Shown piece by piece: positions 3,597-25,484 of a stretch of 25,484 nucleotides of DNA; the first letter of the stretch is position 1; the number at the start of each line of letters is the position of its first letter. Origin of the DNA: a virus. The stretch covers positions 1 through 25,484 of the IMG/VR virus record IMGVR_UViG_3300032954_000064; one strand, given 5' to 3'. The notes beneath the pieces are model-generated. The model was not told where the DNA came from, did not search any database, and saw only the letters and a list, made by a program, of their open reading frames with translations. The position numbers and the translations under genes are program-made.

Positions 3597-3926
3597 ATGT
3601 GGCGCCATTTTAATGAGATTATCGCCGTCCGATTGAGCGCCTGGTTCGCGACCATGGAATGCTTCTGGGCGTTCAACGCTCTGGCCCTGCTCCCGGTCTT
3701 CTGGCCGGCCTCGCTGCAGATCAACCAGTTCATCTCCTCGGGCTATCTCCAGCTCATCGCTCTCCCGCTCCTCGCCGTCGCTGGTGTGATCCTCGGCCGT
3801 ACCGCCGAGGCCCGGGCGCAGCAGGACCACCTCGCCATCATGGCCGAGGTCGAAACCCTCAAAGCCATGCAAGCTGAGCAGCACCAAATCCTGCAGCTGC
3901 TCAAAGAGCACTGGCGCCTCGCTTAA
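3597..3926 (+). CDS. Small membrane protein with C-terminal coiled coil
   Basis: ATG start preceded by AAAGGA. The 109-residue product has two hydrophobic segments, about residues 18-38 (WFATMECFWAFNALALLPVF) and 48-67 (LQLIALPLLAVAGVILG). They are followed by a charged, probably coiled-coil tail with AEARAQQDHLAIMAEVETLKAM and heptad-like spacing. The layout (two membrane segments, then a cytoplasmic helix) recalls the DUF1003-like protein encoded at 6539-6883, but sequence similarity is weak. It lies among fibre genes. Possible roles are a membrane protein of the infected cell (lysis or superinfection control), but no function can be assigned from motifs. Confidence 0.65.
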   Translation: MWRHFNEIIAVRLSAWFATMECFWAFNALALLPVFWPASLQINQFISSGYLQLIALPLLAVAGVILGRTAEARAQQDHLAIMAEVETLKAMQAEQHQILQLLKEHWRLA

Positions 3927-3944
3927 TGATAAGGAACTAACGAC

Positions 3945-4331
3945 ATGAGCGACTTCCCCAATCTTCAAAATCAGCCGGCCGGCGCCATCCCGGTTTACCT
4001 CGCGCAGGGTGGCGTGTCTGTTGGTTCGGGCAACCCGCTGCAGGTTTCCACTGCTGGTGGCGGCGTCGTTGGCACATCTCCTGCGAGTTTTCAGCAGACC
4101 ATGACCACTTCAGGCGTGGCGCTGACGAGCAATACATATGCAGTTGGGATTGTCATCAAGGCGCTTTCGACCAACACCGGAACTGTGTTTATCGGCGGCT
4201 CTGGTGTCACATCCTCGACCGGCTATCCCCTTCTTGCCGGCGAGGCTATCTCCTACTCGGTTAACAATTCCAATCTGGTTTACGCTGGCAGCACTGTGTC
4301 AGGCGATAAAGTTGCCGTGACGGGGAATTAA
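3945..4331 (+). CDS. Hypothetical small phage structural protein
   Basis: ATG start with AAGGAACT about 9 nt upstream, 18 nt after the previous stop. The 128-residue product is rich in Gly, Ser, Thr and Val with no membrane segment. It shows regular beta-strand-like stretches (TYAVGIVIKALSTNTGTVFIGGSGVTSSTGYPLLAGEAISY). The segment resembles small phage proteins that carry a beta-sandwich (head decoration or tail tip), which is only an impression from composition. It sits between two other presumed virion genes, 4 nt before the next start, so co-expression is likely. Confidence 0.6.
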   Translation: MSDFPNLQNQPAGAIPVYLAQGGVSVGSGNPLQVSTAGGGVVGTSPASFQQTMTTSGVALTSNTYAVGIVIKALSTNTGTVFIGGSGVTSSTGYPLLAGEAISYSVNNSNLVYAGSTVSGDKVAVTGN

Positions 4332-22516: not shown

Positions 22517-22784
22517 CGTCAATTGGTTGCGCGCCGTGGACAAGATGTTCCCGGGTGCCGTAGGCTTTGAGAACGGAGTTCAGCTGATGATTGATCAAAC
22601 GCCCGACGAAACCCGCGCTATCCGGGAAGGGGCATCGCATAATGTCGGTGAATACCTGGAATCCATTGGCAAGACTGACCTTGCCACACTGACACAAGAA
22701 GAATGGTTTACGATGCTGGAGGTGGCGGTCACTGGTTATCAGGATTGCCTGGCGTGGATTGAGATGGGGGAGCCGCCTTTTTAG
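22509..22784 (+). CDS. Small conserved phage protein (91 aa)
   Basis: The TTG at 22509 overlaps the helicase stop by 8 nt; other possible starts are GTG 22536 and ATG 22545. MNSVNWLRAVDKMFPGAVGF leads to TPDETRAIREGASHNVGEYLES and TQEEWFTMLEVAVTGYQDCLAW. The last segment is a typical phage small-protein pattern (EWFTMLEVAVTGY). Helical and acidic; no enzyme motif. The name of the family is uncertain. Confidence 0.65.
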   Translation: MNSVNWLRAVDKMFPGAVGFENGVQLMIDQTPDETRAIREGASHNVGEYLESIGKTDLATLTQEEWFTMLEVAVTGYQDCLAWIEMGEPPF

Positions 22785-22796
22785 GCGGGATGAACC

Positions 22797-25064
22797 ATGA
22801 TGACCGACAAACCAACGTATCCATGGCGCCGGCCGGTCGTTCCCGCTGGCCTCGCCGAGGCGGCTATTGCCATCGGCCTGCCGGTATTTCCGTGCAAAGC
22901 CGATAAATCGCCCTTAACCCCACGCGGGTTTAAGGACGCCAGCGCCGATCCTGTCGCCATTCGCCGCATGTTCAGCGTCCCGGGCGCCAAGCTCATAGGT
23001 GCGCCCACCGGCACCGCCTCCGGTGTCGTGGTGGTGGATGTGGACATCAAGGATGGTGCCAGGGGCATGGAATGGCTCAACGCCAACCGCGAGCGCCTGC
23101 CGTTTACCAAGACGCACAAGACGCGCTCTGGCGGGTTGCACCTGTTGTTCACAGTGCCTGTTGGCGTGCATCTGCGCAACAGCGCCTCGCGCGTGGCGCC
23201 GGGCGTCGATGTCCGCGGCGAGGGCGGCTATATCATCGTGCCGCCATCTGATGGCTATCAGGTGGCAGACCCATGCGACCCGGCCGACATGCCGGACTGG
23301 CTGATCGCGGCTTGCACAGAGCAGCGCACTCCCGTAGCGCCAGCCGCGCCATATAAGCCGGTGCAGATCGAGGCCGATGGAACAGCATACGGGCGGGCGG
23401 CGCTGGAGGATGCCTGCGGCAATATCGCCAATGCCCCCGACGGCGCCAAGCATGAGATATTGAACCGGGAGGCATATGCCATAGGCGGCTTGGTGACGGC
23501 TGGCGAGATCCCCGACGGCACCGCTTGGGCGGGTTTGTCTGCTGCCTTATCCGCGCTCAGGCCGCGCTGCAGGGATTTCCGTGCCGCACACAAGACGCTG
23601 GAGCAGGCGTACCGCGATGGCAAAGGCCGCCCGCGCGAGGTTGAGCATACGGTGGTGGTGGTGGAGGAGGAAGAGGAAGGTCCACACCCAGCTCAAGCGT
23701 TGCTCGACAAGCTGGCCGGTAAGGTGGCTCAGAAACAGGCTAAGCCTCTAGCGGTATCGAACTCCCTTATGAATGTTGAGGGGGTCTTAAAGCTGATCGT
23801 GGACGAGGCTGTCCGTACCGCTATCCGACCGCAGCCATTCCTGGCTTTAGGCGCTGCCATATGCGCTGTGGGGGTTCTTGCCGGACGTAAATACCGGACC
23901 AACACGGACTTGAGGACCAACATATATGTCGCTGGCCTGGCTGAATCCGGCGGCGGCAAGGATCATGCCATCGAGGTAGTGCGGCGAGCCATCGACGTGG
24001 CGGACCTTGGGCATTATATGGGCGGCGAAAGCATAGCGTCAGGACGGGCGGTTCTATCCTCAGTCGAGGCGCACCCGGCTAGGCTTTTCCAGATCGACGA
24101 GCTTGGGTATTTCCTGTCAACCGTAACCGGACCAAAGGCGCCCTCACATAAGGCGGAAATCTGGTCCGAGCTTCTAAAGCTCTACAGCCGCGCCAAGGGC
24201 ATTTATCGTGGCACGGAATATGCCAACCGGAAAGAAAACCCGCGCATTGACATCAACCAGCCATGCGTTTGTTTCTACGGCACCAGCACGCCGGCGACGT
24301 TCTGGAAGGCGCTGGAAGGAGGTGCCCTGATTGACGGATCGCTGGCCCGTTTCCTGGTGTTCAGGGCCGAGAACGACAGGCCAGACCGCAATAAACAGGC
24401 GGGCATATTCAAGCCATCAGATGAGCTTCTAGAAGGATTGCGAACCATAGCGGGCGGCGTTGGAGAGCGTGTGCAAGGCGGCAATCTGCCGCAAGCGCAT
24501 GTGGCCAGGATGACCGCCACAGATGACGCAGAGGCGCATATCGTGACCATGACGCCGGGAGCCATCAAGCGCCGCGAGAAAAACCAGGATCTTGAAGATG
24601 AATGGGCCGAGAGCGTCATGGGTACGCCATTCGCATCCATTATCAACCGGCTATGTGAGAACGCGGAAAAGCTGGCGCTGGTTAGGGCTGTCAGCCGCAA
24701 GCCAGAACGACCGGAGATCACCGAACTTGATATGGCCTGGGGCTGGGATTTGTCGGCACATTGCGCTTCATCCTTGATGCGTGAAGGTGGCCATCATATT
24801 GCGGACACCGAATTTGAGAGCCGGTGCAACAAAGCTTTGGCAATCGTGCGCGCAGCCGGTTCTTGTACCGTCAGGGATTTGTTTAGGCGTGGGCTTAAGC
24901 TGCCAGCTAGAGAGACGAGAGACCTCCTGGACACTCTCGTTCAAGCCGGGATGCTTACGGTATCGCAGACCAAGCCGAACGGGGCGGGGCGACCCGCAAC
25001 CATTTACACAGCCGCCCAAGACCATGCCGAGACCGAATTGCGTCACGGTGACACAATTGATTAA
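22797..25064 (+). CDS. Primase-polymerase/ATPase fusion
   Basis: ATG 22797 (or 22800). The 755-residue protein has an N-terminal bifunctional primase-polymerase domain: LPVFPCKADKSPLTPRGF, VVVVDVDIKDG (catalytic DVD at 81-83), SGGLHLLF (His115) and PGVDVRGEGGYIIVPPS. A linker with a VVVV-EEEEEE run (GTG and GAG/GAA repeats near 23652-23679) joins it to an ATPase domain of the DUF3987 kind: AESGGGKDHAIE is the Walker A loop and LFQIDELGYF the Walker B. A C-terminal wHTH-like part (CTVRDLFRRGLKLPARETRDLLDTLVQAGML) may bind DNA. It is the likely replication initiator of the phage, with a presumed origin directly downstream. Confidence 0.9.
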   Translation: MMTDKPTYPWRRPVVPAGLAEAAIAIGLPVFPCKADKSPLTPRGFKDASADPVAIRRMFSVPGAKLIGAPTGTASGVVVVDVDIKDGARGMEWLNANRERLPFTKTHKTRSGGLHLLFTVPVGVHLRNSASRVAPGVDVRGEGGYIIVPPSDGYQVADPCDPADMPDWLIAACTEQRTPVAPAAPYKPVQIEADGTAYGRAALEDACGNIANAPDGAKHEILNREAYAIGGLVTAGEIPDGTAWAGLSAALSALRPRCRDFRAAHKTLEQAYRDGKGRPREVEHTVVVVEEEEEGPHPAQALLDKLAGKVAQKQAKPLAVSNSLMNVEGVLKLIVDEAVRTAIRPQPFLALGAAICAVGVLAGRKYRTNTDLRTNIYVAGLAESGGGKDHAIEVVRRAIDVADLGHYMGGESIASGRAVLSSVEAHPARLFQIDELGYFLSTVTGPKAPSHKAEIWSELLKLYSRAKGIYRGTEYANRKENPRIDINQPCVCFYGTSTPATFWKALEGGALIDGSLARFLVFRAENDRPDRNKQAGIFKPSDELLEGLRTIAGGVGERVQGGNLPQAHVARMTATDDAEAHIVTMTPGAIKRREKNQDLEDEWAESVMGTPFASIINRLCENAEKLALVRAVSRKPERPEITELDMAWGWDLSAHCASSLMREGGHHIADTEFESRCNKALAIVRAAGSCTVRDLFRRGLKLPARETRDLLDTLVQAGMLTVSQTKPNGAGRPATIYTAAQDHAETELRHGDTID

Positions 25065-25220
25065 CCTATTGAAAAATCACAATTCCCGTAATTCTGTCAT
25101 TGTGTCACGCGGGCGGGGGGTACGGGAAGGGGTGCGGGGTAGGTATAGGGGGAGGGTATCCCTATGACACAATGACACAATTAATATAATATATATATAT
25201 CAATACTTTACTTATAATAC
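25042..25220. other. Putative replication origin: inverted repeats, G-rich tract, AT-rich tract
   Basis: TGTCATTGTGTCA (25095-25107) is repeated perfectly in inverse as TGACACAATGACA (25165-25177). Between them is a G-rich stretch (about 25108-25158: runs GGG, GGGGGG, GGG, GGGG, GGGG, GGGGG, GGG) that meets the G-quadruplex pattern. Downstream lies an AT-rich stretch (about 25178-25220) with TATAAT at 25213-25218. GTCACgGTGAC (25042-25052) and TGACACAATT (25049-25058) overlap the primase 3' end. TGTCACCAA repeats at 25221 and 25242, 21 bp apart. Placement after the primase is typical for phage origins; an operator for rusA is the alternative. Confidence 0.45.
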
Positions 25221-25240
25221 TGTCACCAACCGGAGCTAAT

Positions 25241-25484
25241 ATGTCACCAAAACCAGAAAATACGACCTTTAACGTGCCTGGCATCATCAAGGGCAAAGGC
25301 CGCCCTCGTTTCGTGCGCTCGACCGGCCGGGCTTATACGCCCCAGGCGACGCTAGCGGGTGAGCAGTGGGTTAAGCATTGCGCGCTGCAGGCGGGTATCA
25401 AGCCGCTGGAAGGCGCGATCGCCCTGGAGATTGCCATGCACCTGCCGGTGCCAAGATCGTGGACCAGGAAGCGGCGCCAGGAGG
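25241..25484 (+). CDS. rusA: RusA-family Holliday-junction resolvase (3' end outside window)
   Basis: ATG 25241 with CGGAG upstream; 81 codons visible before the window ends. MSPKPENTTFNVPGIIKGKG continues RPRFVRSTGRAYTPQATLAGE, WVKHCALQAGIKPLEGAIALEIAMHLPVPRSW and TRKRR. This follows the RusA pattern: KGRPRF, YTP, and P-x-SW-x-KKR. RusA cuts Holliday junctions as a dimer; the family usually has about 120 residues, so the catalytic aspartates lie partly outside. It closes the replication-recombination module. Confidence 0.85.
   Translation, partial: MSPKPENTTFNVPGIIKGKGRPRFVRSTGRAYTPQATLAGEQWVKHCALQAGIKPLEGAIALEIAMHLPVPRSWTRKRRQE

Follow-up and report, generated by a model that had tools for sequence, protein, structure and literature searches.

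The locus directly past the primase gene, near the end of a 25,484-bp virus contig (an IMG/VR record, analysed over its whole length and called the window here), is very probably an iteron-type replication origin of a primase-carrying phage, at which the primase-helicase would bind the iterons through its winged helix. Comparison with relatives argues strongly for this assignment. The element comprises two tandem 8-bp units and, past a GC-rich spacer, two more in inverted orientation, together with an AT-rich flank and outlying copies of the units, and computation establishes its repeats, the conservation of its layout and position, the lineage-specific sequence of the repeated word, and the covariation of that word with the winged helix of the primase. 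The following features were assigned in the window:

22797..25064, plus strand: Prim-Pol (PF09250) and DUF3987 primase-helicase, 755 aa, the proposed initiator (from domain matches and relatives)
24810..25016, plus strand: codons of the C-terminal winged helix, residues ~672–740, the proposed iteron-reading domain (from AlphaFold, Foldseek, and the covariation peak)
25037–25044: weaker upstream iteron copy, left-oriented
25049..25057, plus strand: upstream iteron copy TGACACAAT, in right-arm orientation, within the 3′ end of the primase gene
25069..25074, plus strand: TTGAAA element ahead of the left arm, recurrent in relatives
25089..25107, plus strand: left inverted-repeat arm with tandem 8-bp iterons ATTCTGTC (25091–25098) and ATTGTGTC (25099–25106)
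25108..25164, no strand: GC-rich spacer of 57 nt, G-rich here, with seven G-runs; G4 motif in this lineage only
25165..25183, minus strand: right inverted-repeat arm with iterons GACACAAT (25166–25173) and GACACAAT (25174–25181)
25182..25220, no strand: AT-rich stretch, the proposed duplex-unwinding side; AT fraction 0.92 over 25 nt
25198..25210, plus strand: TATCAATACTTTA, an exact match to the IHF consensus (WATCAANNNNTTR), within the AT-rich flank
25217..25224, plus strand: distal iteron copy ATACTGTC, in left-arm orientation (from sequence; distal copies are enriched in relatives)
25238..25245, plus strand: distal iteron copy AATATGTC, 21 bp past the ATACTGTC copy, overlapping the rusA start codon (25241); a weaker match, under the threshold of the word scan

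The contig ends within rusA, and no annotated or known phage is similar to it at the nucleotide level. Upstream of the primase gene lies a phage replication and recombination cluster, which encodes a Sak4-like annealing protein, an SNF2-type helicase, a methylase, a Cas4-type exonuclease, an HNH nuclease, and a second helicase. In terms of the primase itself, PF09250 forms the N-terminal domain and a DUF3987 ATPase is also present (Pfam); the protein has no match in NCBIfam, and a sequence search for solved relatives returned none. The last 101 residues are modeled by AlphaFold as a winged helix (helices followed by two strands; core pLDDT ~90), and a Foldseek search with this C-terminal model returns mostly winged-helix proteins, with probability ~1.0 and E-values slightly above 0.001. 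In a full-length model of moderate confidence, the middle of the protein resembles MCM-type AAA+ ATPases and the N-terminus resembles the Prim-Pol domain of the plasmid pRN1.

The perfect 13-bp inverted pair named in the original prediction of an origin is present, with TGTCATTGTGTCA at 25095–25107 and its exact reverse complement at 25165–25177. It is far beyond chance: when up to two mismatches are allowed, the contig has three matches to the 13-mer, where 0.30 would be expected, and a count of three is reached in none of 100 shuffles. The complementarity of the arms extends to 19 nt, giving an arm score of 16.5 compared with a shuffle maximum of 9.0. The shorter sequence TGACACAA occurs five times in the contig, against 0.54 expected, and four of the five copies belong to the element. 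The lone copy, at 22690–22697, lies ~100 bp ahead of the primase start within the preceding DUF6511 gene, has a counterpart in the closest relative, and is possibly a chance occurrence or an autoregulatory site. Two further elements of the prediction also hold, namely a G-rich tract with seven G-runs of at least three between the repeats, within the 57-nt spacer, and AT-rich DNA followed by more TGACAC-type repeats (TGTCACCAA at 25221 and 25242). What it had missed are the tandem 8-bp units within the arms and the membership of the flanking TGACAC/TGTCAC copies in the same repeat family.

Protein-based searches gave more than 100 loci, some on virus contigs and others in bacterial genomes, the genome hits being mostly Acetobacteraceae (e.g. 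Roseomonas) and other Alphaproteobacteria; dereplication left 73 phage or prophage loci, with 36 well-resolved representatives. In the closest relative, L003, whose protein is 96% identical, the whole element is kept at 93% DNA identity, whereas other relatives share the layout and not the sequence. Conservation of the repeats, proposed earlier as a check, is thus borne out for the architecture, which is widespread, and confined to this one relative for the exact repeats. A 6-mer repeated identically at a spacing of 8 nt is present in 35 of the 73 dereplicated loci (48%), compared with 0.8% of 508 control windows from primase genes. Under a model of four units (two 8-mers in tandem, a spacer, and two further 8-mers inverted; maximum score 48), the 73 loci have a mean score of 37.1, compared with 28.0 in 730 shuffles and 29.9 in 509 coding controls, both with a maximum of 36; the window scores 45. 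The 99th percentile of the shuffles is exceeded in 56 of the 73 loci and that of the coding controls in 46, while 17 loci fall within the shuffle percentile and nothing convincing was seen at the locus in L011, L012, and L108. A cultured phage also carries the element: in Rhizobium phage RHph_TM3_3_14B, TTTGGAAT occurs twice per side right after the primase gene, for a four-unit score of 48/48 against a shuffle maximum of 33. Other rhizobial relatives have repeated words of their own in a different geometry, most of them within the shuffle range of the strict four-unit model, and the distant primases of Synechococcus phage Ssp-JY40, Pseudomonas phage 73, and Serratia phage Stoker have no clear downstream arms. 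In Pseudoalteromonas phage H40/1 (L114, NC_070823.1), 8-bp tandem repeats of the TAAGTAAT type followed by an AT run are found at ~2020–2060, ~250 bp ahead of the primase gene, and may represent an origin on the opposite side of the gene.

The 8-bp word is specific to the lineage: it is TTGTGTCA in the window and ATACGTCA, ACTCTTCA, ATAATTCA, ATCTTTCA, ATTCCTCA, ATAACCGA, ATTTTCCA, TTACGTCA, and others elsewhere. Its orientation within each arm is uniform across the well-resolved loci, with 83 left-oriented and no right-oriented copies in the left arm and none and 85, respectively, in the right arm. Extra copies are found upstream (30 right, 29 left) and distally (33 left, 7 right), against a word-scan background of 0.29 per 450 nt, and in the more complete relatives nearly every copy of the word in the record sits at the locus after the primase. 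Across the same well-resolved loci, the spacer has a high GC content (mean 0.64) and a median length of 62 nt, and the 30 nt following the element are on average AT-rich. The IHF consensus is matched exactly in 11 of the 73 loci, compared with 1.0% of shuffles, and at eight or more of its nine positions in 44, compared with ~15% of shuffles; TTGAAA precedes the left arm in 22 loci, compared with 4.9% of shuffles.

GC skew, another check proposed with the original prediction, gives a divided answer. The skew minimum of the window lies at ~15 kb, in a partial contig that ends at the locus, and among nine larger, more complete records the global cumulative minimum is no more than ~1.2 kb away from the element in three on the raw curve and in two after detrending.

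The similarity of the iteron words between loci follows the similarity of the winged helices. Over the 36 representative loci, iteron similarity correlates with winged-helix identity at r = 0.725 and with helicase identity at 0.542; with each controlled for the other, the partial correlation is 0.58 for the winged helix and 0.08 for the helicase, and none of 1000 permutations reaches 0.58. Along the primase, the raw correlation is 0.3–0.56 up to residue 665 and 0.70–0.75 over residues 641–725, and the partial correlation runs from –0.20 to 0.26 at residues 301–660 and reaches 0.59 and 0.58 over residues 661–720. Because the winged-helix codons adjoin the repeats, a shared recombination history could add to this covariation; the step at residue ~661 argues against simple physical linkage, which may nevertheless play a part, and the final segment of the primase, the closest to the repeats, has a partial correlation of 0.31. 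Relatives whose N-terminal halves do not align with that of the window (tblastn), all of them Prim-Pol by Pfam and some with an added PriCT_2 domain, bear the same kind of element, which points to the shared C-terminal part. Together, the conserved position and architecture, the lineage-specific repeats that track the winged helix, and their near-exclusive location strongly support the iteron-like origin that had been predicted.

The long complementary arms also allow a different reading, a stem-loop origin like that of the Sulfolobus plasmid pRN1, in which extrusion of a hairpin with a 19-bp stem and a 57-nt loop would matter rather than binding of individual iterons by the initiator. In pRN1, a stem-loop of ~100 bp, with a 21-nt stem and a 58-nt loop, is required intact at a position 54 bp past the Prim-Pol gene (PMC4234260). 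The window element does fold as single-stranded DNA (z = –3.74), and long complementary arms are seen in Loktanella phage pCB2051-A (41-nt arms, 93% complementary) and in L047 (77-nt arms). Comparison of the units, however, yields a mean likeness of 6.83 of 8 positions for same-arm neighbors, 6.81 for pairing partners, and 6.67 for non-partners, differences that are not significant. The equal likeness of same-arm neighbors and pairing partners favors protein-read iterons over a pairing constraint, and a pure hairpin constraint was rejected, as pairing partners show no excess similarity; moreover, neither the copies outside the hairpin nor the winged-helix covariation is accounted for by pairing alone. 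We therefore consider the stem-loop reading unlikely, although extrusion may contribute, given that the window hairpin can form and that a few relatives have far longer arms. In pCB2051-A (L149, NC_020853.1), the inverted repeat, with a 64-nt loop, lies just past the primase gene (3855–4000) and is followed by AT-rich DNA and then by a second long inverted repeat (4094–4227).

A transcript of the locus could likewise form a long hairpin, as a transcription terminator or structured RNA would, and an RNA role was among the alternatives first offered. With partner-specific pairing not favored over direct-repeat similarity, no terminator-like site found at the locus, and no Rfam match there, this reading finds no support, and we assign it the slightest probability of those considered.

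Involvement of a G-quadruplex, which the original prediction had made part of the origin, fares little better. In favor of a reading in which folding of the G-rich spacer strand is the functional trigger, the spacer of the window has seven G-runs and the highest G4Hunter score of the contig, contains one of its two G4-motif matches, and is kept G-rich in L003. Beyond these, the motif occurs among the well-resolved loci only in L072 and its near-copy L073. Its presence in no more than 2 of the 36 well-resolved representatives and its absence from relatives with the same layout led us to reject the G-quadruplex as a conserved feature and make a G-quadruplex-driven origin very improbable. The conserved property is a GC-rich spacer. 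The other G4 motif of the contig (1636–1665) lies within a coding region.

The location of the distal copies bears on a further alternative, that the repeats are an operator array, used by the winged helix of the primase or by some separate repressor to regulate the primase or the next gene, with no origin at the locus. Distal copies lie across the start codon of rusA, and promoter-like hexamers overlap the repeats. The next gene, however, differs among relatives (rusA, a RuvC-like gene, or small ORFs) while the element stays after the primase, which indicates that it belongs with the primase and not with rusA. Furthermore, most copies are downstream of the primase rather than at its promoter, and inverted arrays combined with a GC-rich spacer, an AT-rich flank, and an IHF-like site are typical of origins. 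An operator in place of an origin is for these reasons improbable; the two roles can coexist, and a secondary operator role over rusA may apply. Holliday-junction resolvase genes recur directly after the element, with RusA in the window (25241–25484), L003, and L008 and a RuvC-like protein (ILALDLGTTTGWAI) in L104.

In the iteron-origin reading, several copies of the primase would attach by their C-terminal winged helices to the tandem 8-bp iterons, and the bound sets, flanking the GC-rich spacer in opposite orientation, would place two opposed helicase rings. The AT-rich DNA alongside, probably bent by host IHF, would then melt, the DUF3987 ATPase would unwind outward, and the Prim-Pol domain would prime both strands, such that replication would start at this locus.

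The element has known precedents in the origins of pRN1 and of the SaPI and SCCmec elements; what is new is the detailed layout and the way the repeats covary with the winged helix of the primase, and a literature search on DUF3987 together with an origin of replication returned no description of the layout. The pRN1 and pRN2 origins resemble the window locus in lying directly past a gene for a Prim-Pol, helicase, and winged-helix protein, in a near-identical geometry (~20-nt stem and ~58-nt loop, compared with 19-nt arms and a 57-nt spacer), and in having a sequence less conserved than its surroundings (PMC4234260). They differ from it in being described as stem-loops that lack iterons; in the window, the arms consist of 8-bp iterons in tandem, further copies lie outside them, and the spacer is GC-rich. 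The pRN1 ATPase is an SF3 helicase; that of the window is assigned to DUF3987 by Pfam and resembles MCM-type AAA+ ATPases in the model of moderate confidence. ORF904 of pRN1 showed no specific binding to its own origin in vitro, which counts against the iteron-origin reading here, and the authors of that work proposed a similar origin for phage BIP-1 (NC_005809), with no iterons described (PMC4234260). In a scan of the two plasmid stems, imperfect repeats at a 9-bp spacing score 40 against a maximum of 37 for pRN1 and 37 against 33 for pRN2 in a small shuffle set, which is suggestive only. These repeats (TGTCC and GGAC; pRN1, L147 383–500; pRN2, L146 58–158) go unremarked in the available text on pRN1.

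In SaPI and SCCmec (Cch2), short iterons immediately past the gene of the initiator helicase are recognized by the C-terminal domain of that helicase, and two hexamers have been proposed (PMC7581432). The window and its relatives likewise have several direct repeats beside the initiator gene and an AT-rich stretch, the proposed unwinding side, beside the repeats, and the repeat word and the C-terminal domain vary together, as in an iteron origin of this type. Unlike the window, SaPI and SCCmec have the primase as a separate protein, and their iterons differ in sequence, number, and layout; in the window the arms are inverted around a GC-rich spacer. By analogy, the element can be said to join the geometry of pRN1 with a SaPI-like iteron logic. 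The alpha primase of phage P4 is of the TOPRIM type, whereas the window initiator has a Prim-Pol domain, PF09250. P4 alpha is a primase-helicase whose C-terminal winged helix binds repeats at the origin, as reviewed in the pRN1 paper (PMC4234260). The Prim-Pol of phage NrS-1 uses an 8-nt site, present once per strand in mid-genome and suggested as an origin, as the template for de novo priming by its N-terminal half (PMC7102993); the covariation seen here instead implicates duplex iterons and the winged helix at the C-terminus. For related primase families, too, a role of winged helices in recognizing the origin has been proposed (PMC5862659).

We entertain, tentatively and as rather less probable than not, a broader notion in which the pRN plasmids and the proteobacterial Prim-Pol phages share an origin design with inverted iteron arms around a loop, directly 3′ of the gene for the primase, helicase, and winged helix, the word and the winged helix forming a fast-evolving code that separates co-resident replicons. 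If the iteron reading is true, the stem-loop origin of pRN1 may itself be an iteron origin that has gone unrecognized, and the phages would offer a natural set of matched variants, in protein and DNA, from which to learn how origins are read by a winged helix. Few uncultured phages have a known origin, and for the large group of phages and prophages with Prim-Pol/DUF3987 primases the reading, if true, would supply a simple rule for finding it: to seek inverted tandem 8-bp words just past the stop codon of the primase gene.
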